Positions 29,814 to 57,540 of a stretch of 64,000 nucleotides of DNA are shown here, one piece after another; within the stretch, counting starts at the first letter, position 1, and every line of letters begins with the position of its first letter. The DNA is from Plumapathes pennacea (taxonomy: Eukaryota; Cnidaria; Anthozoa; Antipatharia; Myriopathidae), in the NCBI GenBank assembly GCA_964036295.1, contig OZ038470.1, positions 12,281,578 through 12,345,577 on the forward strand, written 5' to 3'. Position numbers and translations under genes: made by a program. Below the pieces are notes generated by a model. That model was not told the DNA's origin, made no database searches, and saw nothing but the letters and a program-made list of their open reading frames with translations.

Positions 29814-30249
29814 TGTCGCAGAAACTCTATTCGCGCTCAAAAGTTTTTACTCGCTGCTGGTCCGCACGACAAAGGACTGTATCTTTCACTTGCTTTATTA
29901 GTTCCCGACCCAGTTACACATTCTTCGCTACTGCACTCTTCACAACAATCATACTGGGCATCTGCCCTTGTCCTAAAACTGGCCTCTATTTATATGGTCT
30001 AAGCTTGCGTAGTTCTACAGTACAAATTCCGTAGCTTTAGTAATTCTACTGGCTAAAATCCTCGTGTAATTACTGACTAAAGTCCTCATGTAATTTTCCC
30101 TCGACTGTAGTTTTACTGTAGTGTGGAAGCATCTGAAATCTAATACTGGTGAACATAATCTTTTAATAACAACCGGAACTTTCGTGACTGAATCTATAAC
30201 TAAATCAATTAGCTAAATCAATAACATATATACGTGGGTTTTCCCGACA
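29814..30249 (-). repeat. BEL 3' LTR
   Basis: 436 bp, TGTCGCAGAAACTC...CCCGACA on the + strand. By eye it differs from the other LTR at four bases and one 2-bp indel over about 425 bp, plus the inner end of the other copy. Confidence 0.9.
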
Positions 30250-31755
30250 CTCTCCCCCCCTTGACTCGTCTTCGAGTCAAGCATGCTCTTAGTTTTCCAA
30301 CCCGAGTCTATGGCTGCAGCTCGCTTTGGAACTCTCCTTTCAGACGTTGAGGTTTTTGTTGGTTGAGGCTCCTGTACCGCTGCACTTCCGCACGCACTCT
30401 TGACCTCAAGAGGGTACAATAGCTGAACTGGTCTGCTGATGTGCGCGGGTTTTCCCTTTGAAAGGACTCTGACGTTTGCTCCTCTCACCACCTCGTCCTG
30501 GCCTTTCACCAGACTCTCTACTACAGCCAACTTCCAGCTTCCTCTCTTCCTCCCTTCCTCATACACTGTCACTACATCTCCCTCCTTCACTCCTCTTTCT
30601 GTACTCTTTGACTTCCCCTTATGGAACTCTCTCAAATCTGCCAAGTACTCCTTGTGCCATCTTTTCCAAAAGTGCGCTAACTTCTTTGACAAATAGACAA
30701 ACCTTTTGTCTATCCTTCCCTGATCTTCCTCATCTATGTACTCACCTGGATTGCATGACTTGATCCGCCTTCCATAGATAAGGTGTGAGGGAGTTAGTGC
30801 TTCCTCGTCTAACTCTTCATACTCGTACGTTAGTGGCCTAGAGTTTAAGGTGCCTTCTACCTCAACCAAGACTGTTAGTAGCTCATCAAAGGTTAGCCTG
30901 GCATTACCTAAAACCTTTTTAAGACACCTCTTAGCGCTACCTACCATTCTCTCAAAGAACCCACCCCACCAAGGTGCTCTCTCCAGATTAAATTTCCAAG
31001 TGATTCTATTCACTTCCAAAGCTGTTCTCACCTCCGGATGGTCGTACAGATCTTTCAAGGTCTTAGCTGTTGCCTTGAAAGTTTTGGCGTTGTCAGAGAT
31101 CATGAGGTTCGGCGTTCCTCTCCTTGCTGTGAACTTGCGTAAGCATCTTAAGAATGCTGGTGCCGACAAATCTACCACAAGATCTAAATGTACCGCTCGT
31201 GTCACGCAACATGAAAACAACGCTATGTAAACTTTGTTCATGCTGTCGTTCGTCCCTTTAGTAAAAAGGGGACCAGCGAAATCTACACCTACCTTTGAAA
31301 ACGGTGCTGCTTCTCTTACCCTGAAGTCCGGAAGCGCAGCTACGGGTGGACTTCTGTATGGTTTCCCTTCCAGTCGTTTGCATGTTACACAACTGCCGAG
31401 CACTCTCTTCACCATCTGTCTTCCCTTTGGTACCCAATACCTAGCTCGTAACTCTGCGAGCGTCGCTCTAACCCCGCAGTGGTGTACCTTCTCGTGGCAA
31501 TCCCTCACGATCATTTCTGTTAACTTGTGCTCTTTCGGCAATAGAATCGGATTTCTAGCGCTTACCTCTAAGTCCGAGTTTCCCATCCTTCCCCCACATC
31601 GAAAAATTCCGTCCTCCTCCACTATTCCCAGACTATTTCCCAGCTGACTGAAATTTGACTGCTGCTTCACGCCTAGCTGAGCTGACTTAATCCATACTCT
31701 TTCTGCCACTAACAATTCTTCGACCTCCAACCGTCCCGAGCGTCTCGCTCCCCCC
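30213..31755 (-). CDS. BEL/Pao pol, 3' part: integrase
   Basis: Shows the integrase zinc-binding module (HHCG then CVTCKR), then the catalytic core with D in VGVDFAGPLF, D in LMISDNAKTF and E in WWGGFFERMVG. A C-terminal region of the kind that follows BEL/Pao integrases (WKLAVVESL) comes next. Integrase inserts the cDNA into chromosomes. The frame runs about 37 bp into the LTR before stopping. This piece is cut off from the RT part by the Mutator-like element; the first Met is internal, so no true start exists here. Confidence 0.9.
30250..30263 (-). promoter_or_regulatory. BEL polypurine tract
   Basis: On the - strand AAGGGGGGGGAGAG abuts the TGTCGGG start of the 3' LTR, the expected place of the plus-strand primer. 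Confidence 0.8.
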
Positions 31756-31764
31756 TTACAACTC
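31756..31764. repeat. Left 9-bp target duplication of the Mutator-like element
   Basis: TTACAACTC, identical to 41656-41664. Nine bases is the usual MULE duplication length. Confidence 0.85.
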
Positions 31765-32664
31765 GGTTGTTACGAAAACTAAGACCCATGAAAACGAAGA
31801 CCTAAGACCTAAGACCTAAGACCCAAAAACGAAGACCCCCCTAAAACTCTCGTAAGACGGCTCATAGGAGCCCGCGCTGTGTTCTGTTACTTTGTGCGAG
31901 TGTCTGTTTGATTCCACGTGCGTTTTAACGGGGGGTCTTAGTTTTCGTAATAACCCCTTCGTTTTACGAAAACTAAGACCCTATCACAAATTAGCCGTAA
32001 CAAGCACATCTGCCTCCGTGTTGCGACCAGGGTGAACAGTGAAACGAATAAAGTCAAACGGAGGTGTCTGTTTGATTCTACGTGCGTTTTAAGAGGGGGT
32101 CTTAGTTTTCGTAATAACCCCTTCGTTTTACGAAAACTAAGACCCTATCACAAATTAGCCGTAACAAGCACATCTGCCTCCGTGTTGCGACCAGGGTGAA
32201 CAGTGAAACGAATAAAGTCAAACGGAGTTGTCTGTTTGATTCTACGTGCGTTTTAAGAGGGGGTCTTAGTTTTCGTAATAACCCCTTCGTTTTACGAAAA
32301 CTAAGACCCTATCACAAATTAGCCGTAACAAGCACATCTGCCTCCGCGTTGCGACCAGGGTGAACAGTGAAACGAATAAAGTCAAACGGAGGTGTCTGTT
32401 TGATTCCACGTGCGTTTTAACGGGGGGTCTTAGTTTTCGTAATAACCCCTTCGTTTTACGAAAACTAAGACCCTATCACAAATTAGTCGTAACAAGCATA
32501 TCTGCTTCTTTGCTGCGACCGAGGCGAACAGTGAAACGAATAAAGTCAAACGGAGGTGTCTGTTTGATTCTACGTGCGTTTTAAGAGGGGGTCTTAGTTT
32601 TCGTAATATCCCCTTCCTTTTACGAAAACTAAGACCCTACCACAATTTAGCCATAATAAACATA
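31765..32664 (+). repeat. Left terminal inverted repeat: array of 164-bp units
   Basis: After about 170 bp of terminal sequence (with four AAGACCT-type short repeats) come five units. The phrase GTCTTAGTTTTCGTAATA recurs at 31935, 32099, 32263, 32427 and 32591, exactly 164 bp apart. Each contains a palindrome: GGGTCTTAGTTTTCGTAA, an 11-13 nt loop, then TTACGAAAACTAAGACCC, the same sequence as the transposon tip. They probably act as multiple transposase-binding sites (inference). Confidence 0.9.
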
Positions 32665-33262
32665 TGTAATATTGATGGGAGGCTGTGCTGTATTTCTTCC
32701 TCCAAGTGCGTTTCAACAGAACAGTTTAGCGGATGTTTTAGTCTACCGTGACGTCCGAAGTACTGGGAGTTCGTAAATACGTAACCAGACAGGAAGCCTC
32801 ATTCATTGTAAAATCACGTATATTCATCAATAATAGCATAATTGGCATTGTTATGGAATGTGATACAATATTTTGATTTACGATTTATACATTATGGCGA
32901 AAAACAGGTTACAGGCACGAAAGAATCGAAAGAACATAACGGCTTTGTAGAAAGAACATAAATTGTGACATTGTAGAGAATACCTCAATCTTATAGCAAC
33001 TAACACTTGTCAATGGTGAATAAAAGCTTACAAAGTATTGTTTCCTTGAGGCACCGCTTCATAAGACAGCAATTTAAAAAGTTCTCTGCATAATGTTTAG
33101 AGTTCATATATTTCAAATTTGAAAACCAAAAAAAGAGAAACTTTTAAAAATCGCAAAACATGAACTGTAACAGGAAAAACAATTTTATGGTCCCATCTTA
33201 GAACACAAAATTTGGTAACTACATCTTACAATCCCTTTGATTTGTTAGATGTTCTTGAAGCA
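32665..33262. other. Non-coding interior, 3' of the transposase
   Basis: AT-rich, about 600 bp, with no frame or repeat recognised. Probably the transposase 3' UTR and spacer. Confidence 0.5.
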
Positions 33263-36233
33263 TTAGATTTCCATTGAAAAATGCCTTCTGAGGTACACTT
33301 TGTGGGATTCCTGTAGCTTCCCGCGAACTTCAGGCGGAATGACGACGTAGTCGTTGGAGAAGTATGGGAAACGTTCTTTCATGCAAGAGAGGTCCGCATG
33401 GTAGTACCTCGTGGCCTCTTTAGTCGATGCCTGCTTTCTACTCCAGTCGCCTTGTAAGGGAAAATAGAACCTCTCCTTGTGCTCGAATACCAAATCGTGT
33501 GGTATAACACGCACACGATGGCAGAAATCACGTCGACACTGCTTGCAGGTCTTAGCTTCCTTCAGTAAGATCTTTAAGACGAAGGGGTTGTCGTTGTGGT
33601 GGATTGCGGTGTACAACTGACCTGGTTGGCACTGCTGACTGCTCACAATTCGGCTTGGTTGATGTACCGAAGAAGGAGGGCGATACGGAAACCTGCAGGC
33701 TGAACCCTTCTTTCCAGCCACCGCCTTGTTTACATTCGCTTCAGCCAACGCAGATCGTCCGCCTGCCCTTCTCCCTCCCTTTGCAACAAAGTGAAGATGC
33801 TCCTCCAGGACTCCGACATTATCTGCTACGGCGATGGAATGCTTGCAGATCTTATCATATTTGAAGCAAGGGCACCGACATGCAACGTGGTTTTTGTTCA
33901 CCACGCATTCCACCTTTCCATGCTTCGCCTGCCTGGACGCCACTTCAAACTTGTTGGCATTTGCGACGTCGAAAGATGCCTTTTGCTGGATAGCAGCTGG
34001 CAAGTTTAAAAGGGATATTGCACCCTCGACAACGGCAGATGCGACATCTTCTTGGCAAATCCCCTTCTCCTTCAAGAAGGCGGCAGCGTCCGTTGAAAGT
34101 TCCCTGAACTCTCTGCTTTCCACTTCACAACCTTCGCTGATCTTGACTACCTTCCCCTGCAACGCGTCCCCTACCGACATGGCATTCACTTTCTTCATGT
34201 ACGCATCCCGTTTATCCTCTGACCAATCGAACCAAGTATCGACAGGCACGGCAATATGAGCGGCAACATCTGCCAGCTGATATTGCTCACTCAATCCACA
34301 TACAGCCATCTGGAACTCCTCCTGCTGCCTGGTGTGAATCTCCTCGAACACATGTCGAGTGAATTCAACCTTTGAAAGGTTATCGCTTTGCCCCCTGTTG
34401 CTGACACGCAGGTAGTCTAACTTCGCTTGCGACATTACGTGATTCATGGCTTCTGAAGGGTTGGTATAGGGGCGAACAGGTTTGCCGGTCACATGGTCAA
34501 CTGGCATGCCAGCCTCCTTTCGATACTTTAGCGTCATCTTCTTTCCAATCATGGATTGTCTCTCAATCAAGTATTTTGAGAACTGGGGCTCGTACGGACT
34601 CTCTTTCTTAAGAATATCCGTCTCTTCTTTGTCAAGATCATCTTTGCACGACTGTAGCTTTTCCTTCACGTCATGTTTGTCCGCGGCATCGACGATTCCT
34701 TCGCTTTTGTTTGGAACACCAAAGATCTTGTCCAAGAAGAACTTCTGTGATTTCTTTTCTCTGATTCCAATTCTTCTGAGCTCTTCTTTACAGTTCCCCT
34801 CAAAGTGCTTCACACATCGCAGGTGCTTTGCCTTTGGTAGGTCGGAGTTCCATGCCAAATCTAGGGCTTTCTCACCATCGGTGATGTACCCCTTACATTT
34901 GTCTAGGCCTTTGCAGGCAGCCACACAGGTAGACGACAACACTTTGTGTGTTTGAAAGTCTTTCCTATGATGTATCATAGTAGGACCAAGGAAGATAGGG
35001 CTCTTGCCAGTTCTCTTTGAAGTTAGGAACAAGTGTTTGTAGACCACTGGTGTAACCTCAAACTGGCCCATATTGAACGTTGGGTCAATAGACAATGGAT
35101 GGCTGAGTTCCTCATTTGTCGTAAACTTAGACAGGTCAGAGCACATCACATCTGTGCCGAGGATCCACAGGTCTGTAGGCATATCTTGGTGACGCAGGAC
35201 CAATTTTTCTTCTTTCGATCTGGCATAAACGAGAAGGTCATCGACCGGATCTACAGCTTTCTTGGCCCGTGCGTTTATGTCGTAAATTTGTTTACGAGAA
35301 CGGGGCAGAACTCCAGGAGTTCGCGCTCTGCTGGGCCCTCCACCCTGCTCTTTTACCTTTCTGTAAACATGCGACTGTGGCTTCTTGGTCACCTGCTGCT
35401 TGATCGCTTGTATCGTGGACTTTGATGTGGGATAGAATGGTAACTTCGATCCGCTTCGGCTGTTCCCATGTGACAGTACTTCAAACTGTACCTTATCCTC
35501 TCCGGAGTGGTACTGCAGCAAAGCTGTTTCATGGACAATCTTAGAATCTCCGTTCTTTAACAAGAATATAGATCGAACAAGTGCTGGACATGCCTTGTTG
35601 CCTTTTGAATTGATGTGTAGATGGTACTGGTTCTCGCCACTAAGATTCTCTGCCTTTTTTGATAACACTGTGAAGTTGAACTCGTCGTTGATGTTATCAC
35701 ACTCCACTGTCCAGATACAGCACCTCAATACCTTCGTGTATGCACCACTCATGTCGTCTTTGATGTCTTCCCAGTTCTCATATTGACTCGTGTTAACTAG
35801 AAACGCTGCATTCTCTCGGACTCGTACAGGATGACGATCGCAGCGCACATTCTTCATACTTCTACATAAGAGGATGTGTGATGCTTCTGCTGGAGTGTAA
35901 CGGGCTTTCTTTCTTGACTCAAACACAGGCGTTTCCAGGTTATTTTCCCAATACAGTGTTTCCTGGAGGAAAAAGCAAAATCGGAGAGCGAAAGTGTAAG
36001 AATAAAGTTTCTTCTCTTTTCCATTACTGCTCGTCATTTTTATCTCATTTCCTCTTTTTTTTTTCTCTCCTTTTTTTCTTTTTGTTGTTTCATTTTGCGA
36101 CTAGATCTTTTTTCCCTTTGAATGGATTATTTTTGCAGTCCTTAAAATTCTCTTCTGCTAACACGGGCTCTTATACCTGGTCTCCTGGTTCGTTTGATTT
36201 TTCTTTGGCCGCTGCACCAGAAGAGGTTTCCAT
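33263..36233 (-). CDS. Mutator-like transposase with SWIM zinc finger, two exons
   Basis: Cuts and inserts the element in the nucleus. Preferred model: exon 1 36233-36177 (start METSSGAAAK, donor CCAG|GTATAA) joined in phase 0 to exon 2 35962-33263 (acceptor CTTTTTCCTCCAG), about 918 residues. Residues of the spliced protein: catalytic Asp about 312 (LSIDPTFNMG), Asp about 381 (YITDGEKAL), a CVKH pair about 402-405, Glu about 523 (NPSEAMNHV), SWIM finger about 714-727 (CRCPCFKYDKICKH), and a second Cys pair (CKQCRRDFCH) near 825-834. This fits the MULE DDE fold plus SWIM. The alternative unspliced start at 36037 would translate the polypyrimidine tract (RFCFFLQ), so it is less likely. No disabling mutation seen. 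Confidence 0.85.
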
Positions 36234-36824
36234 GATGATCGAGTCACCCTACAAAATGTAAATACATAAGCATTCTGAACTACAGCTAAAAATAAAAGAA
36301 GATCCGAAGCAGTACAGTAGCCATTTCCAAAAGGTAGGCCTTTCGATACTTTCATCAGTTGAATGAATATACTAATTTTTCATATTTTAATAATAAATAT
36401 CATAATATTCCAAAATTCCAATTTTTCATAATTTAGTTTTAATATTTTTATAATGTTTTTTCAAGTATATATGCTGTAAACCCTACCGTTTTATGCAAAG
36501 TAATGATTACGGCCTAGTGGGGTTGATAACAATGTTAAGGCTAGCCCCTCTAACTTTCAGTCTGCAACACGATTCACATTCTAAATCAGCTAACTAGGCC
36601 GTATTTAAAAATGCACGCACCTGATAATCGTTATTGCTGTCACCCGAAGGAACTTCTTGCTCAGTATGTTCCCCTGACCTGGCACATAGAGCATAAGGAG
36701 AAATCAGTTTGTGATATGATTATGTGTACGGAAGCATCTGTTTACGAACTGCGAACAGGGGAGTACAGCGAAAGCTATATTTCATTTCTTGTATATTTCA
36801 AGGAGTTAAGTACAATTTTGACTT
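36234..36824. other. Spacer between the cargo gene and the transposase gene
   Basis: About 590 bp, AT-rich, containing the end of the cargo transcript and the presumed transposase promoter (both genes on the - strand). No further frame recognised. Confidence 0.45.
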
Positions 36825-37631
36825 TTAGCATTGTTGTATTATTATTCTAATTCCAATTGTGAGGCAATTGAAGCAATTTATATACCTTTCAACCTTTGAC
36901 ATCATGGCAAATGACTGGTGTACATTATTCACAACCCCGCTGCATCGTAGTCGCTTGATCATCCATTCGGTCATCGACTGAAGTTGGCAGCGGTGACTTG
37001 GAAAAACCACTAGAGCACCTCCACCGGTTCCTCCCAGATTTTCCGCAAGTGTGTGAGTGTCGACCAGGAAGAGCGCCCCAGAGATGTTTCCAGCGAGGAA
37101 GACGTATCCACCACAAGTGTAGATGCCTGCAGCGGGAGATGTAGATGTCTGCAAGGTGCTTAAAGCTCTCTCCAAATCTCCCGAGGGGTCATCTGGATGC
37201 ATACATTCCTCAGTTAATTCGTAGTCACTGGGAACAATTCCTGAATCGCGGAGTATCATATATGCCTCTGAAGCATCGTAGAAGCGCTCCACGTCCCTTA
37301 AGGGATTAAATTTCCGAGGGTAAGCTCTGATGACGGATTCAGCAAGCGTTACGAGGTCTTGCCAGTTGCTTGATAGTGCGATAGAAAACGCCGCCGATCT
37401 CAGAATGCAGTGGGCCAGACTGACGCAGAGGAAAGCGCAGCTGTTGGTGGCATCATTCTCAGGATAAGGAGGGCATCTTCCAGCACATACAGCTGCATCA
37501 TATGTTTCCAATGCACTACTTTGGCTAATGGAGAGCGGGTACACCTTGAACACGAAATCAACGGTCGACCTGGATAGGTGACCCAGTGGATGTTCCTCGT
37601 CATCGGGTTCTCTTGTCAGATCAATGACCGT
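36825..37631 (-). CDS. Last exon of the cargo gene: papain-like cysteine protease domain
   Basis: Acceptor ATTTCATTTTAAAG just before 37631. Encodes TVIDLTREPDDEEHPLGHLS, then NDATNSCAFLCVSLAH with the candidate nucleophile, then GALFLVDTHTLAENLGGTGG with the Asp-His pair, then GALVVFPS. The family's Gly-rich loop after the His is present. The last about 35 residues look less conserved in character. Confidence 0.7.
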   Translation of the reverse strand, partial: TVIDLTREPDDEEHPLGHLSRSTVDFVFKVYPLSISQSSALETYDAAVCAGRCPPYPENDATNSCAFLCVSLAHCILRSAAFSIALSSNWQDLVTLAESVIRAYPRKFNPLRDVERFYDASEAYMILRDSGIVPSDYELTEECMHPDDPSGDLERALSTLQTSTSPAAGIYTCGGYVFLAGNISGALFLVDTHTLAENLGGTGGGALVVFPSHRCQLQSMTEWMIKRLRCSGVVNNVHQSFAMMSKVERYINCFNCLTIGIRIIIQQC

Positions 37632-39984
37632 CTTTAAAATGAAATAAAATATTTGTCGAATCAAATTACCAGTTTGCACTGACTAGCTTAACCAGTGATC
37701 TTTTTATCACCCTTTGTAGCGTGCATGGTTTATTCTTGTATTAAAAATCGGTCTGTCTCAGTGTTCATTTCTAAATTTTTGTACACCAATTAATGTACCA
37801 CCACAGTGAGTGTCACATTAGCAACAGTGTCTATCTCCTTACCTTGACATGGATTGGTACATTTGAAGTGTTATTCCCTGCATCGCATCGACGCCGCTTG
37901 GTGCTTGGTTTTTGTAAAGAAGAGAAAATCATATAAACACATAGGACGAAAAATAAAAGGATGAATGGCGTGTTGTATACAAGTAGCAGCAGCAAGATTG
38001 CCTGGTTTGTAAAAATATAAAATTATACATTTCGTTTTGTACATTTCTTGTAGGGCAGGTTCGAATGTTAACGCAATGTTTATAAGAAGAAGTGTTCACT
38101 GTCTCTGCAAGGAATTACTACAAAATGGATGAAACAAGCGTCACTACCTTGGGCTTGCTGTCCTTCTCTTCGGAGATGTGTCATGCAAATGGGAACGAGT
38201 TCGAAGGTATCGTTTCTATGAAACGAGAAAAGACAGTGGTAAATATTTTTAAAGTTTAGCCTCAATCCTAAAATCGCAAAAGACAAGTTGTTCACCTGAT
38301 GATCATTCAGCTGCAAAGGTGTACTGGCGGGGATGTCTTCGTTTATCGGGGCATTTCCTGCTATAAACGTAAGTACAAGGTGTGATGAACGGCAAATTGG
38401 GGCGGTATTGTACTGATTTCTGTGTATGTTTTTAAACTGCTTCGAGTTAAATAGAAAAAAGACGTTGCGCGTCTTGAGAAATGCTCTTTACCCAAAAGGG
38501 TGCGGACAGATCCGTTTGGACCTGATTTTCGCGAATATCTTTCATTGATCTGATCTGAATTGCACTCTACCTTTAACGAGTATGAAAAATATAATACTAG
38601 ATCTGCATTCTTCAGTCCCAGACCTTTAAAACGATATATTGTAATAGAATTTATCATAAATAGCAACGCTACAATAATTTTTTTTCCTAAAATATTTTTG
38701 CACAACGCGGTAACTTTTATCGGAACCTTAACAGGTTATTAGCTGCATTACCCGCAACACACGAATATTACGCGCCACTCGCAATATTGTTATCTGCGAC
38801 TTGAGAATAAAACGAATCACACGTTTCTTACCCGGATCACCGTCATCATTTGCATCCATTTTGTGTAGAACAACTGTATTTCTCATTGCACTGTTCTGGC
38901 TCACTTGAAGAGGAACGTCAGGGCAGTTCGGGGCACTTGCATTGCGCATGGTTATGTTGCGGACAATGTCCTTTGTATCGGGCCTGTCCTCTGGTTGGAA
39001 ACTGGTACACTTATCGAAGATCTTAACTAATCTGTACCAGTCGGTTTCTTGATACACCTTGTATTTTGGTGAATGGCGCGGCTTCTTCCTACTCAAGATC
39101 ATTCTTTCCAGCTCACTTAGACACTTGCCCTGACTTATGTGACGCAGTTCAATTTGGTAGGGATATCGCGTGTCAGGATTAACAATGACATAGAAAACCA
39201 TGCCCAGAGCCCAGACATCCACTGCTTTTAAGTCTTTAATCGAAAGACTTGAGCCCGGAGCATTTACGAACAACTCTGGCGCTCTATAGGCCGGCGTACC
39301 ACGTGCGTTGTTGGTTGTGGCTAGTCGACAGAGCTGGGCAGTCTGATTTGCCACTGAACGACTCTCTCCGAAGTCGGCCAATTTGCAAATGATTGGTTTG
39401 GTCTCGAAAATTTCCCGGATAAGATTCACAGACAAATCTCGGTAATGTTTATTCGAGACGAGAATGTTAGCTGTTTTGATATCCCGATGAACAATTTCAC
39501 GCTGGTGCAGGTAGGCAAGTCCCCGGGAAATATCCTCAGCAATTTTCGGTTGGAAGGGAAACTGCTCCAAATTTCCTGAAGTCTCAACGTATCGGAGAAA
39601 GTCCTCGAGGTTGCTAACCTTCTCTGATCCGCCAAATGGGGTGAAATCAAAGTATACATATTCGAGCATTATAGCGCACGGGTTAACACACGCCGCTACC
39701 ATGCGCACAACGTGCTCATCATCTATCTCCATTAGGATCTTTGCTTCCTTGAGAAAAAGGCATTGCTCGTACGTCTCCTTGCTCAAAATTTTCTTAATGA
39801 CAACCTTCTCTCCCTCACAGCTTCCTCTTTTCGCAACAAACACAGAGCCGAACGTGCCTTGACCAATGGGATCTTCTTTTTCGAACAGCTCCGTCCAGTT
39901 GAATAAGGGAACATTTGCGCCCAACAGGGATCCTAGCGCGTCTGGTGCCGTAGATGGCTTCAAAGTTGGAAACTTGGAAGACAT
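36825..39984 (-). CDS. Protein kinase - cysteine protease (deubiquitinase-like) fusion, five exons
   Basis: Exons on the - strand: 39984-38832, 38360-38296, 38215-38148, 37903-37843, 37631-36825. All junctions agree in phase; total 2,154 nt = 717 residues plus stop. Kinase: Gly loop GQGTFGSV 41-48, Lys64 (VVIK), Glu80, catalytic HRDIKTAN 166-173, DFG 204-206, GTPAYRAPE 229-237, DVWALG 256-261, so active by sequence and Ser/Thr or tyrosine-kinase-like. A basic linker follows (KRRTASPR, STKRRR, possible nuclear signal). The second domain has NSC with Cys514 and VDTH with Asp640/His642, the Cys...Asp-x-His pattern of papain-fold deubiquitinases (OTU/UL36-type); substrate unknown. Exon 3's donor (AAG|GTAGTG) is the weakest site. 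If not spliced so, these are two adjacent genes. Likely host-derived cargo. Confidence 0.72.
38832..39984 (-). CDS. Exon 1 of the cargo gene: complete kinase domain
   Basis: Start ATG at 39984 (MSSKFPTLKPSTAPD), donor CCGG|GTAAGA at 38832/38831. It holds the entire kinase fold in one exon, 384 residues plus one base. All invariant residues are present, including the Arg of the PEDRPDT helix. Reading on through the donor gives an implausible basic tail, which supports splicing. Confidence 0.85.
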
Positions 39985-39999
39985 ATTTGCTCTATCAGG

Positions 40000-40429
40000 T
40001 CACATTGCGAAGAGTATAGTGTGGAACTAAACATGCAAATTTTGTATGTGCGACGCGAACCCCAGGAGCGCGAGATTTTCTTTTTGTCCCATTGATGATG
40101 TCAACTTCCGGTTTAAAAGGCTTCTCGATTTGGACAACTGACAGTTATCGAAATACCTTTACTGTTTTTATTTATTTTTTATCATTAAACAAATGAAATA
40201 GTAAGCTAAAATATCAAAAGTCATTTACGAAATCAGAATGACCACACGCTAATTTTTATTACTCCTGACTTCTTTACTCTTTTGCATCTGTCAAAGGTGC
40301 GAATGTTGCAAGAATGTGCGACATTTCTTCGTTTAATTAAATTGATAATGCATGCAATTATACTTCCTCGCACTTCTGACCGCAAATATGCTTGTTATTC
40401 GTGCCAACCTATTGGGGTCTTGTCTAGAT
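40000..40429 (-). promoter_or_regulatory. Presumed promoter of the kinase-protease gene
   Basis: Non-coding stretch between the cargo start and the right terminal array. About 120 bp upstream of the ATG, the - strand reads ACCGGAAGT (40104-40112), an ETS-type site, next to a TGACATCA half-CRE-like sequence. No TATA box. Inference only. Confidence 0.4.
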
Positions 40430-41655
40430 GTGCTTGTTATGGCAAAGTTGTGATAGGGTCTTAGTTTTCGTAAAACGAAGGGGCTATTACGAAAACTAAG
40501 ACCCCCTCTTAAAACGCACGTAGAATCAAACAGACACCTCCGTTTGACTTTATTCGTTTCACTGTTCGCCTTGGTCGCAGCAAAGAAGCAGATATGCTTG
40601 TTACGACTAATTTGTGATAGGGTCTTAGTTTTCGTAAAACGAAGGGGTTATTACGAAAACTAAGACCCCCTCTTAAAACGCACGTAGAACCAAACAGACA
40701 CCTCCGTTTGACTTTATTCGTTTCACTGTTCGCCTCGGTCGCAGCAAAGAAGCAGATATGCTTGTTACGACTAATTTGTGATAGGGTCTTAGTTTTCGTA
40801 AAACGAAGGGGCTATTACGAAAACTAAGACCCCCTCTTAAAACGCACGTGGAATCAAACAGACACCTCCGTTTGACTTTATTCGTTTCACTGTTCACCCT
40901 GGTCGCAACACGGAGGCAGATGTGCTTGTTACGGTTAATTTGTGATAGGGTCTTAGTTTTCGTAAAACGAAGGGGTTATTACGAAAACTAAGACCCCCTC
41001 TTAAAACGCACGTAGAATCAAACAGACACCTCCGTTTGACTTTATTCGTTTCACTGTTCACCCTGGTCGCAACACGGAGGCAGATGTGCTTGTTACGGCT
41101 AATTTGTGATAGGGTCTTAGTTTTCGTAAAACGAAGGGGTTATTACGAAAACTAAGACCCCCTCTTAAAACGCACGTAGAATCAAACAGACAACTCCGCT
41201 TGACTTTATTCGTTTCACTGTTCGCTCTGGTCGCAGCACGGAAGCAGTTATGCTTGTTACGGCTAATTTGTGATAGGGTCTTAGTTTTCGTAAAAGGAAG
41301 GGGTTATTACGAAAACTAAGACCCCCTCTTAAAACGCACGTAGAATCAAACAGACAACTCCGCTTGACTTTATTCGTTTCACTGTTCGCTCTGGTCGCAG
41401 CACGGAAGCAGTTATGCTTGTTACGGCTAATTTGTGATAGGGTCTTAGTTTTCGTAAAACGAAGGGGTTATTACGAAAACTAAGACCCCCCGTTAAAACG
41501 CACGTGGAATCAAACAGACACTCGCACAAAGTAACAGAACACAGCGCGGGCTCCTATGAGCCGTCTTACGAGAGTTTTAGGGGGGTCTTCGTTTTTGGGT
41601 CTTAGGTCTTAGGTCTTAGGTCTTCGTTTTCATGGGTCTTAGTTTTCGTAACTGT
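40430..41655 (-). repeat. Right terminal inverted repeat: array of 164-bp units
   Basis: Seven units; the phrase GGGTCTTAGTTTTCGTAAAA recurs at 40456, 40620, 40784, 40948, 41112, 41276 and 41440, each 164 bp apart. Same palindrome as the left array, in opposite orientation overall. Two sequence subtypes are mixed ('gtcgcagcaaagaagcag' and 'gtcgcaacacggaggcag'). Ends with the tip GGGTCTTAGTTTTCGTAACTGT. Confidence 0.9.
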
Positions 41656-41664
41656 TTACAACTC
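41656..41664. repeat. Right 9-bp target duplication of the Mutator-like element
   Basis: TTACAACTC, identical to 31756-31764. Confidence 0.85.
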
Positions 41665-43885
41665 ACCTTGGAGTTGTAAACAAACCGCATGACCCATGCC
41701 GTCGCTCTGAACAGCCGCTCAGACTTGTTGTGCCGTTCCAAGTCGATTGCTGCGCTAACGTCTGGTGGTCTGTTTACGCTGGTCATCAACACCGTGGACT
41801 TCTTTTCCTCCTCTGCTGCTTCAGGAAGTTTTGTGATCTCGCCAAGGACTGGCCATCCCGATCGGGGCCCAGAAAGCCACTTGGGCCCTTCCCACCAAAT
41901 CTGACTATCCCTGAGTTTAGTTGCCAGTACCCCCCTAGATCCTAAATCCGCAGGGTTCTCCTCACCCGGGCAGTGTCCCCACTCTTCCTTTTCAGTTAGA
42001 GTTAGGATTTCGTTTACCCTGTGTTTTACAAATTGCTTCCATTCACCCCTGTTCTGAATCCAACAGATAGCCGTCTTACTATCTAACCAGTATCTGGTTT
42101 CACTCACCTTTACCTGGGATTTCAACGCCTTCTTGATTGTGTCCATCAGTTGTGCTAGTATTCTCGCGGACATCAGCTCTAACCGTGGAATTGTCAGAGC
42201 TTTCAGCGGCGCTACACGAGTCTTGGCTGCCAACAGTTTTGCGCGCACTCCGACCCTGGTTCTGTAAACCATGTAGATCGCAGCGCAATAGGCTTTGGTG
42301 CTTGCATCACCAAATCCGTGTAACTGATACTCAAGCACTTCCTCGCATGGATTCTCGTAGATGCATCTATCTACCACGATCTCTTTAGCTCTAGCCAAAC
42401 TCGCGATCCAGTCGTCCCATTCCCGTTTTAACTCGCCCTGGATTTCCTCGTCCCAGTCTAATTTAATACCGCATAACTTCTGAAAGAGCATCTTCATACT
42501 CACGGATACGGGGCAAATTATACCGAGGGGATCGAATAGCCCAGCTACCAAACTCAACACATTTCGCTTAGTGGGTTGCATGCTTCCCGCTCTGTCGACC
42601 ATCTTCTCGAAACTAATCTGGATTGAATCCCTTTGTGGGTTCCATGGTACCCCTAAGACCCCTTGACAACCTGGACTCACCTCTGTCTTTAATGTTGACT
42701 TAGCAAAGGTTTCTTCACTGTCTGTGATGCGTTTGTGACCATCGACGTTGGCCTCTTCTCTCGCGATGAGTGTTCTCAGTGTTTCGTCGTTGGTTTTCCA
42801 TTTCCGTAGCCTGAACCCGCCACTAGCCATTCTCTGCTTGGTCTTCTGGTACAGTTCGTGACATTCGCTTGTGTTACTTCCGCCCGACACAAGGTCGTCT
42901 ACGTAGAAGCTCTCTAACATCTTCTTCACAAACTCCGGGCCCATCCCTTTGTACTTCGAGATGTGATGCCTCAGCGTGGCATTCAACAGGAACGGAGATG
43001 CATTCAGCCCAAACACGACTCGACTGAAGCGGTACACAGCTATCTGTGAATCAGGTTTGTGTACATCTTCCAACCACAAAAATCTGAGACAATCTCTGTC
43101 GGCTTTGTCTACCTCCACATTCAAGAACGCCTTCTCTATGTCGCCTATTAACACTACTCGCTTTTCCCTGAACCTTACCAAGATGTCAAACAACAGGGGA
43201 TTTAGAGACGGTCCAACATGCAGACAATCGTTTAGCGACGTACCCTTCTTACCTTCACTGGACGATGCGTCGTAAACAATTCTAAGTTTTGTCGTACTTG
43301 CCTCTCTGCGGATAACAGCTAGATGCGGGATGTAGTGTGCTTTCTCTTCCTTCTCTAATTCTGCAACCCTTTCTATAATTCCTGAGGCTAGCTGTTCCTT
43401 AATCACGGCATCGTACTCATCTAAAACTCCCGGTTCTTTCTTGAGTTTTCTTACCTGACTCCTCATGCGTGACAGGCTGTTGTCATAGTTGCTTGGCAGG
43501 CGGTCGTGACCTGCTTTCCAGGGCAGCTTGACTGAGTATCTCTGGCCGTTAAACCTGGTGTTGTCTACGAACTCTTCGTGTACCTCGTTACTCTCTCGTA
43601 TCCCTAAAGTTTCTAAGTCCCACAATCTCCCGACAGCACTCTCTAAACTTTGCCTATCTGAGGTTACGCTGTCCTGCGCTACAAAATTGACTGACACTCG
43701 ACGTTCTTCGCACTCCGTCTCACGTCCCTTCAAAGGTACCGACAACACCCAACCGAGCTCAGTTTCGACCGCCACAGGTTCCTCGACCTCCCCCCGTATT
43801 GTCCTCCCCTTCTGAAAGTTCCACAAATAGTCCGCTCCGATAAGCAGATCTACCTCTAACTCTTCTTTAGACTGGCAACGTCAGA
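41665..43885 (-). CDS. BEL/Pao pol, 5' part: reverse transcriptase and RNase H
   Basis: The pol frame is open from about 43885. RT copies the RNA genome into cDNA: the fingers/palm Asp is in IGDIEKAFLNVEV and the catalytic YVDD box in SFYVDDLVSGG, preceded by FGLNASPFLL. RNase H follows (HGFGDASTKAYCAAIY, then LELMSARILAQL, then YWLDSKTAICWI). The frame is cut by the Mutator-like element after the RNase H region; beyond 41656 it reads into the transposon. It lies in a different frame from gag, through an apparent one-base shift near 43860-43880. Confidence 0.9.
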
Positions 43886-45539: not shown

Positions 45540-45964
45540 AACTCTATTCGCGCTCAAAAGTTTTTACTCGCTGCTGGTCCGCACGACAAAGGACTGTATC
45601 TTTCACTTGCTTTATTAGTTCCCGACCCAGTTACACATTCTTCGCTACTGCACTCTTCACAACAATCATACTGGGCATCTGCCCTTGTCCTAAAACGGGC
45701 CTCTATTTATAGTCTAAGCCTGCGTAGTTCTACAGTACAAATTCCGTAGCTTTAGTAATTCTACTGGCTAAAATTCTCGTGTAATTACTGACTAAAGTCC
45801 TCATGTAATTTTCCCTCGACTGTAGTTTTACTGTAGTGTGGAAGCATCTGAAATCTAATACTGGTGAACATAATCTTTTAATAACAACCGGAAATTTCGT
45901 GACTGAATCTATAACTAAATCAATTAGCTAAATCAATAACATATATACGTGGGTTTTCCCGACA
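45540..45964 (-). repeat. BEL 5' LTR (inner end damaged)
   Basis: 425 bp, matching 29823-30249 of the other LTR. The last about 9-12 bp of U5 (TTCTGCGACA in the other copy) are missing here and replaced by an AAAGAAGAAGAAG run directly before gag, so no clear primer-binding site remains. Confidence 0.85.
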
Positions 45965-56128: not shown

Positions 56129-57040
56129 GGAAGTGCGGGGTATTTCGTAGTTTAGCCAGTCGTTCTTTATCGCAAGAGGGCCATCTTCAATACTTTTGCA
56201 AGACTAGAAATATCCTGAACATGCGTACATTGCGTAAATATTGTCCCACATGAATCCATCTGGTTTTATTAATCAACAAAAAGTACATGAACTTGTTTCG
56301 TGCGCGAGTTTCCCAAATCGTACATTCCATTTTCGAGCGGTTTTCGATCAGAGTGGCTCTTTATAAGACGAGAAATATCCTTAAGGTGCTCATTTTGCAT
56401 TTATTTAGTTTATGATCAACATATAATCTACATTTTTGGTTCATTTGGGTGATTTTCCCTACCAGATTTCACGAGATTGAGAGATAATTACGATTCGTAT
56501 TTGAATAAGTCTTTTTGCGAGAGTTCAAGGGCGCCGCGTGACGCGGGTTCGGAAGGTTGTAGCCACGTTAAGGATCGGTTTTAATGGCCCAGACACTCTG
56601 TTCTTCCTTATAAACTCTGAGCAGATTTGATGGAGAGGTAAAATATTGGCTTGATTGAGACGTGCGTCGTAAGACAGATCATGCCCGTCGCTGCACGGCT
56701 TCGATGCTATCGCTTAGATATTGAGGTATCGCGGCACAGACAGGAGCAGCGCACTCTAGATACAAGCTCTTTAGGACAGTAGCCAGCTCTACGCAATTGC
56801 CTAAAAATATGGAGGAGTTTAAATGCTTTCATATTAAGGTACTCACAATGTGTTTTCACAGAGTATGTACTTACATCAAAATTCGACTTCAATTTAAAAT
56901 ATTAGGGTAAAAAATTTGCTTATATCTTTGGAACCGATGAAATTAAAGAGCCACGACTAAATTATTTGGCGAGCGCGTACGTTTTTAGTTTGTTTACTAC
57001 GACGTACGGCTTGCTGTTCTTTTATCAGTTCCCAGCATAT
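56129..57040. other. Unassigned sequence
   Basis: No coding signal or repeat recognised in about 900 bp. Confidence 0.35.
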
Positions 57041-57044
57041 CAAG

Positions 57045-57540
57045 TGTACACTTCTTTTGTTTCGAACAATAGAAAATTTTGCTTCGAACAAAAGAAATTT
57101 CTATTTTAAACAAAAGAAAAACCAAACTCGCACGCCGAAACCTATTATTATTAGACGTTTTGCTGATGCAGTCCCCGCTGGAGTTTATTGTCTCGTAGCA
57201 TTTGGTTCTTTTGTATCAAGCATACAGTTCTTTTGTTTCGAGCAATAGAAAATTTTGCTTCGAACAAAAGAAACTTCTATTTTGAACAAAAGAAATACCA
57301 AACTCGCACGCCGAAACCTATTATTATTAGACGTTTTGCTGCTGCAGTCCCCGCTGTAGTTTATTGTCTCCTAGCATTTGGTTCTTTTGTATCAAGCATA
57401 CAGTTCTTTTGTTTCGAACAATAGAAAATTTTGCTTCGAACAAAAGAAACTTCTTTTTCGAACAAAAGAAATACCAAACTCGCATGCCGAAACCTATTAT
57501 TATTAGACGTTTTGCTGATGCGGTCCTTTTGTCTTTTTAA
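57045..57540 (+). repeat. Tandem repeat, 177-bp unit, three copies
   Basis: 'tttgtttcga(a/g)caatagaaaatttt' starts at about 57056, 57233 and 57410. Each unit is rich in TTCGAACAAAAGAAA and its complement TTCTTTTGTTTCGAA, so it forms many small hairpins. The similar short frames in the three copies are repeat-derived. Confidence 0.8.

Follow-up and report, generated by a model that had tools for sequence, protein, structure and literature searches.

Accessory domains have been described in Mutator-like DNA transposons (MULEs), including an OTU domain in the Hydra element MuDR-6_HM, in the portion covered of the survey by Dupeyron et al. (2019, PMC6446971). The element described here was found to share with the surveyed MULEs the 9-10 bp duplications, the long inverted ends and the DDE and SWIM motifs, whereas it differs from them in the predicted fusion of a kinase and a VTD to the transposase; the word kinase is absent from the main text of that survey and no VTD was found in the portion of its Table 1 that was covered. 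The VTD deubiquitinases (Erven et al. 2022, PMC9741609) resemble the protease of this locus in the (here predicted) fold, in the D-x-H active site and in their residence in transposons, whereas their carriers, in the parts of that article covered, are Helitrons without a classical transposase, and the word kinase is absent. The same parts of the article mention, in one sentence, that VTD genes of cnidarians occur in fusion with domains associated with transposons, and suggest that the Helitron VTDs give protection from degradation (PMC9741609).

The Kaonashi/KIU VANDAL MULEs of plants likewise carry a long-conserved protease of a ubiquitin-like modifier, but in the portions covered the Ulp1 domain lies in a VANC-type gene apart from the transposase, the elements are non-TIR and no kinase is found (PMC13317346). 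The tandem-repeat noncoding regions of VANDALs are given as the targets of anti-silencing in the part covered of a further article (PMC10398659). The deubiquitinase of the herpesvirus large tegument protein (2j7q, M48) belongs to a viral tegument context, without a transposase. Among the open-access literature matches listed, as judged by title and opening of the abstract, no fusion of a kinase with a MULE, of a kinase with a transposase, or of a kinase, a VTD and a transposase was found. MULEs with accessory domains and VTDs in Helitrons were known already, and the fusion of a kinase and a VTD to a MULE transposase, as read from sequence, would on these matches be new.

Boundaries of the element and its insertion site

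The window (the whole stretch of 64,000 nucleotides of Plumapathes pennacea that was analysed) was found to contain a Mutator-like element, complete in its parts, at positions 31765-41655, with the fused gene on the minus strand. The element was flanked on both sides by the 9-bp duplication TTACAACTC (31756-31764 on the left, which is supported by the frame of the empty site, and 41656-41664 on the right). The left terminus was GGTTGTTACGAAAACTAAGACCC, and the right terminus was the complement of GGTTGTTACGAAAACTAAGACCC with the final bases changed. The terminal inverted repeats were long, about 0.9-1.2 kb including their arrays (left, 31765-32665, plus strand; right, 40425-41655, minus strand), and the inverted arrays of 164-bp units comprised 4.6 units at 31900-32656 and 6.7 units at 40426-41521, every unit containing the terminal motif as an inverted pair. 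The exact ends claimed by the original prediction were correct to within one base, and both the duplication and the inverted termini were seen.

Excision of 31765-41664, that is, of the element and one duplication, was found to yield an open frame of 1255 codons, 738 before and 517 after the junction, and the restoration of this frame places the insertion beyond chance. The interrupted frame is taken by us, from the look of its open reading frames, to be a BEL/Pao-type pol gene, the halves of which were found at 30213-31769 and 41616-43880 on the minus strand, split by the element. Tandem units of 24 bp at 30047-30095 and 45762-45810 matched each other and may sit in the BEL/Pao LTRs.

The target duplication was found to be 9 bp in the window and in the element L051, and 10 bp in L031-L034, L036 and L037, all within the 8-11 bp range of Mutator-like elements. 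The predicted duplication of 9 bp therefore stood as a match at the window, where 9 bp still match, and did not stand as the length in these six copies of the family. By its duplication, its long inverted ends and its DDE/SWIM transposase, the element is a Mutator-like DNA transposon, in agreement with the earlier assignment. A tandem array of 2.8 units of 176 bp with TTTTGTTTCGAACAAAAG-like palindromes was also found in the window at 57038-57526 and may end another element.

Exons and reading frame of the window gene

All exons lie on the minus strand. The protein kinase exon (38832-39984) begins with MSSKFPTL and was found to contain an intact G-loop, VVIKK, HRDIKTAN and DFGE, followed by a short exon in the kinase-protease interval (38296-38357) and, in model D, by two optional exons with a basic NLS-like stretch (37843-37903 and 38148-38215). 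At the start of the VTD protease exon (36886-37631), VIDLT resembles a SUMO-interaction motif and precedes acidic residues (37614-37628; 0.03 occurrences expected per shuffled protein). Its VTD deubiquitinase-like domain (36888-37559) contained Gln at 37521-37523, Cys at 37437-37439, Asp at 37059-37061 and His at 37053-37055. The donor of the protease exon, AAAG|GTATAT, is in phase 2 and homologous in position to the donor of L051. Two linker exons followed, one that is in frame and has the acceptor CTATGTGCCAG (36621-36678) and one in frame with the exons on both sides (36177-36248).

The last exon (33263-35962) contained the DDE/SWIM transposase and starts at a splice acceptor, without an ATG there. 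The SWIM-type motif CRCPCFKYDKICKH was found at 33839-33880 (residues 1392-1405 of model A). The candidate catalytic triad consists of D at 35084-35086 (SIDPTFN), D at 34877-34879 (TDGE) and E at 34451-34453 (YTNPSEAMN), which we take to be the DDE triad by comparison with MULE motifs.

The fused frame comprised 1596 aa in model A, or 1639 aa in model D with its two additional exons, and contained no internal stop. Introns were chosen by eye from the splice consensus in the window and in L051. The candidate donors considered earlier for the protease exon of the window broke the frame, and the donor given above, located by matching L051, led to an open one. The transposase was open and the kinase-protease frame was without an internal stop, as had been claimed for what were then read as two genes.

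Kinase, protease and transposase domains

The kinase of the window was matched by PF00069 (1.2e-35) and contained all of the G-loop, Lys, HRD and DFG. The Lys, HRD and DFG-Asp residues were kept in the window and in 36 of the 37 scorable kinase rows. Similarity to solved kinases was generic only. The element L051, otherwise intact, contained NFG in place of DFG, and its kinase may be inactive because Asn replaces the DFG Asp.

At the sequence level, the protease gave no Pfam match and, as a single sequence, no PDB match; its profile gave five PDB matches at chance level, none of them a VTD, and no Pfam family was common to the members of the protease set A2. The predicted fold was that of the VTD deubiquitinases (papain-like), which were its best fold matches, and the aligned proteases contained conserved Q (41 of 41), C (41 of 41), D (36, with E in 4) and H (40 of 40). 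The protease is VTD-type by this predicted fold and the Q/C/D-x-H set. The D-x-H motif is also shared by UFSP2 and ATG4 according to the part covered of PMC9741609, and identities of the UFSP2, ATG4 and ZUFSP type were rejected on lower fold scores (UfSP2 8.5, ATG4A 7.5, ZUFSP-type Mug105 7.2). The original prediction had compared the protease with the ULP1 type, a comparison that gives way to the VTD type of the predicted fold; Ulp1 (C48) was absent among the 50 matches listed in either fold search, an absence that excludes nothing. The description of the companion as a kinase joined to a protease agreed with the PF00069 match and the predicted VTD fold.

PF04843 (Herpes_teg_N) was found at 82 places in the same genome, 66 of them above the cut-off alone and another two in combination with neighbouring matches; the 14 control genomes gave none. 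These matches, six of which were read, are presumably Helitron-type VTDs. The protease compared with the PF04843 domains of the same genome gave E 0.02 at a probability of 2%, which is not significant, and an hhalign score of 21.2, the highest-scoring of 30 shuffles reaching 19.5.

The transposase of the window was found to contain the DDE-type motifs and a CxC..CxH motif, with Pfam matches to MULE (E 0.002) and SWIM (E 0.11) that both fall below the curated cut-off. The MULE-type DDE/SWIM transposase of the original prediction was thus upheld by its motifs, with weak Pfam matches. Seven of the nine relatives scanned were matched by MULE at 2.3e-5 to 0.065, all below the curated cut-off; the exceptions were P0125 (Transposase_mut, 0.11) and P0128 (SWIM only, 0.011). 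The SWIM match of P0118 was above its cut-off. The D, D and N..E..N motifs were conserved between the transposases of the window and L051. A transposase relative with 45% identity was found in the sea cucumber Apostichopus japonicus (P0123), in the model of which Pfam finds no kinase.

Copies of the window family

The genome search with the left end gave at least 138 matches (40 of the 247 candidates scored), which were grouped by hand into 30 loci. Seventeen array-bearing copies or fragments (L031-L047) were compared with the window proteins as queries. In the six copies with the 10-bp duplications, the ends matched and the duplications were exact, which speaks for mobility in the past. Kinase sequence was found in eight of the 17 (L031-L035, L040, L046 and L047) and transposase sequence in eight others (L037-L039 and L041-L045), and L036 contained neither. 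The two were never found together, no copy kept all parts, nine copies were without the kinase, and L047 contained pieces of the kinase and the protease. The window was the sole full-length member among itself and these 17 copies. By their sequence, most of the other copies look like internally deleted forms of one long element, because the regions near one or both ends were kept.

The DNA search with the kinase gave 14 other matches (all 15 candidates scored). Nine, of 88-99% identity, were located in the eight array-bearing loci with kinase sequence, three, of 69-72% identity, were L048-L050, and two were short (L022 and L023). No near-identical host kinase gene was found in this search or among the 74 of 221 candidates scored in the protein search with P0001.

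Distant families, selection and possible exchange of the module

The protein search of the genome with the protease gave 16 matches at 12 loci, and a kinase match was found within 9 kb at all 12, against a chance expectation of 0.05. A transposase match was found at six of them; the places of protease, kinase and transposase were collated by hand, the transposase place at C4 being added by hand. The kinase-VTD-transposase arrangement of the window was also found in L051, L052, L048 and L054. A second intact element, L051 with L053 supplying the rest, was flanked by the duplication ATAATATTG on both sides; it contained the kinase-VTD in a single exon and a transposase 47% identical to that of the window. 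L052 contained a transposase 46% identical to that of the window; its kinase was without the N-lobe, and its VTD region was interrupted by one stop. L048 and L054 were decayed elements with more distant transposases, and L049 contained a kinase-VTD frame, beside which neither a transposase nor the ends of an element were found. Beside the kinase fragment of L050, inverted repeats of another unit were found (8679-9556 of L050), possibly the ends of another family.

With the kinase-VTD of L051 as query, 111 proteins were recovered at E<=0.001. By score, the best of them, as far as P0085 (2e-35), were of the kinase-VTD type, and beyond a sharp drop generic-looking kinases followed. Kinase-VTD relatives were found in stony corals, in Actinostola and in an octocoral, the named hosts being Porites evermanni, Acropora millepora, Desmophyllum pertusum, Actinostola sp. 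and Dendronephthya gigantea. One Actinostola gene model (P0047) contained part of a kinase-VTD unit together with PF13843, presumably a piggyBac-type transposase domain, and is either a nested insertion or a misjoined model. P0124, a relative with all three parts, was not found in viral contigs.

Ratios of dN/dS were calculated against the window by the Nei-Gojobori method, with codons containing stops or gaps excluded; the close copies differ by few changes, and for part of their history the copies have been decaying. The kinase ratio was 0.19 in L034, 0.14 in L035, 0.23 in L040, 0.09 in L046 and 0.30 in L047, and, with dS near saturation, 0.10 in L048, 0.13 in L049 and 0.08 in L050; the near-identical copies L031-L033 gave no kinase ratio. 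The VTD ratio was 0.19 (L047 only, 87 codons). The transposase ratio was 0.14-0.38 in nine copies, and L052 gave none. The kinase, the protease and the transposase are under purifying selection. The companion is conserved across element families, which agrees with the suggestion in the original prediction that it is part of the life cycle of the element.

In the kinase tree, the window was grouped with L048-L050 (support 100/99). In the transposase tree, the window was grouped with P0113 and P0115, and the clade around them included L051 and L052 as well, whereas L048, L054, P0125 and L050 were outside it (98/99). This tree contained three rows that were less than half filled and three very long ones, with a long-branch warning; L048b, L054a and L054b were omitted from it, the rows of L048 and L050 were fragments, and the branch of L050 was very long. 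The window and L048 were 63% identical in the kinase and 28% in the transposase, whereas the window and L051 were 38% identical in the kinase and 47% in the transposase. As read from these sequences, the pattern suggests that the kinase-VTD module may have been exchanged between Mutator lineages.

A probable fused gene and the alternative explanations

A single gene of the element probably encodes a fusion that begins with a Ser/Thr-type kinase, continues with a VTD-type deubiquitinase and ends in a DDE/SWIM transposase. In L051 with L053, removal of six introns gave one open frame of 1731 aa comprising kinase, VTD, linker and transposase; the fused frame of L052 contained one stop. The junction after the VTD, counted from the conserved Gln, was at a homologous position and in phase 2 in the window and L051, and the donor of L052 was also in phase 2, two codons further on. 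Read in the phase that the protease donor dictates, the linker exons contained no stop. Among 20000 shuffles of the exons of each element, none was equally free of stops for L051, 149 were for L052 and 1764 were for the window, in which a second entry phase was open too; the test is therefore weak for the window alone and strong for L051. Two relatives were single predicted proteins with all three parts: P0128 (1484 aa), the kinase of which begins after the G-loop, followed by VTD motifs and a whole SWIM transposase, and P0124 (1200 aa), with a shorter transposase portion. Both are predicted gene models and a misjoined model is possible. P0125 (1416 aa) contained the kinase and the transposase with no VTD visible. 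The stretches between the domains contained SUMO-interaction-like and basic motifs, which precede the VTD in the window and follow it in L051, where LIDLT occurs twice (0.03-0.05 such motifs expected per shuffled protein). From the shared frame, the VTD fold, the conservation and the purifying selection, all computed, we infer that one protein is made.

The original prediction had placed the kinase and the protease in a second, separate gene carried as cargo. The frame continues through in-frame introns into the transposase, and P0128 and P0124 are single predicted proteins with all three parts, so the kinase-protease, lying in the same frame as the transposase, is probably neither cargo nor a second gene. 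Separate expression of a kinase-VTD gene and a transposase gene, the shared frame being a by-product or the result of rare read-through splicing, is a distinctly less probable reading, although it accords with several features: the unspliced kinase-VTD frame of L051 stops immediately in the intron, with an AATAAA downstream, several of the nine relatives inspected terminate where the intron lies, as is expected of a separate gene, and Met codons in the linker exons could start a transposase. The in-frame linker exons across three families, the homologous donor phase of the window and L051 and the two three-part proteins argue against it. Under the single fused gene, intron retention could possibly also yield a free kinase-VTD protein, because the unspliced frame of L051 stops in the intron and several database proteins end there.

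That one element captured a kinase-protease gene of the host by chance, in the manner of a Pack-MULE, is very improbable, even though MULEs do acquire host gene fragments (PMC6446971, portion covered) and the window alone was whole among the copies of its family. The same arrangement in L051, L052, L048 and L054, the occurrence of relatives in stony corals, in Actinostola and in an octocoral, and the purifying selection all speak against it, and for the family as a whole chance capture is refuted. The original prediction had tied such a capture to copies lacking the kinase and protease and to an identical host gene elsewhere; the former were seen, with nine of the 17 copies lacking the kinase and none keeping all parts, whereas the host gene was not found in the DNA and protein searches within the candidates scored above. 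Least probable of all is a remnant of another mobile element, such as a Helitron VTD, nested in the MULE: VTDs are published from Helitrons (PMC9741609, part covered) and the 66 PF04843 matches of this genome above the cut-off are presumably of the Helitron type, but none of the 82 PF04843 places coincided with the 12 kinase-VTD loci, and both in separate families and in P0128 the VTD is enclosed by kinase and transposase exons that share its frame.

Proposed role of the fused protein

In the single fused protein, the transposase would bind the terminal motif, which is multiplied in the arrays, so that many copies of the whole protein would gather at the ends. There the fused VTD and kinase would act in cis on the proteins present: the VTD may strip ubiquitin from the transposase or from nearby host proteins and block degradation, silencing or a repair signal, and the kinase may tune the complex or local host factors. 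SUMO-interaction motifs bind SUMO, and the similar motifs found here may help to recruit the protein to chromatin. A role in anti-silencing would parallel, by analogy, the VANC/KIU system of plants. It is about as likely as not that the transposon makes a three-enzyme protein with a deubiquitinase of the herpes tegument type, and that its kinase-deubiquitinase part is a module for host control which can be exchanged, has passed between Mutator lineages of deep divergence and acts in cis on the chromatin of the element, as tegument enzymes do for a virus.

The finding places a kinase and a deubiquitinase in the predicted chain of a transposase, under purifying selection here and with catalytic residues conserved in coral and anemone relatives, and it links MULEs to the VTD enzymes of Helitrons and herpesviruses. 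The material is testable, since there are intact copies and the domains lend themselves to separate assays. Cut-and-paste transposases are usually viewed as lone enzymes that borrow host repair; if the proposal is true, a DNA transposon would actively rewire the phosphorylation and ubiquitin signals at its cut site.
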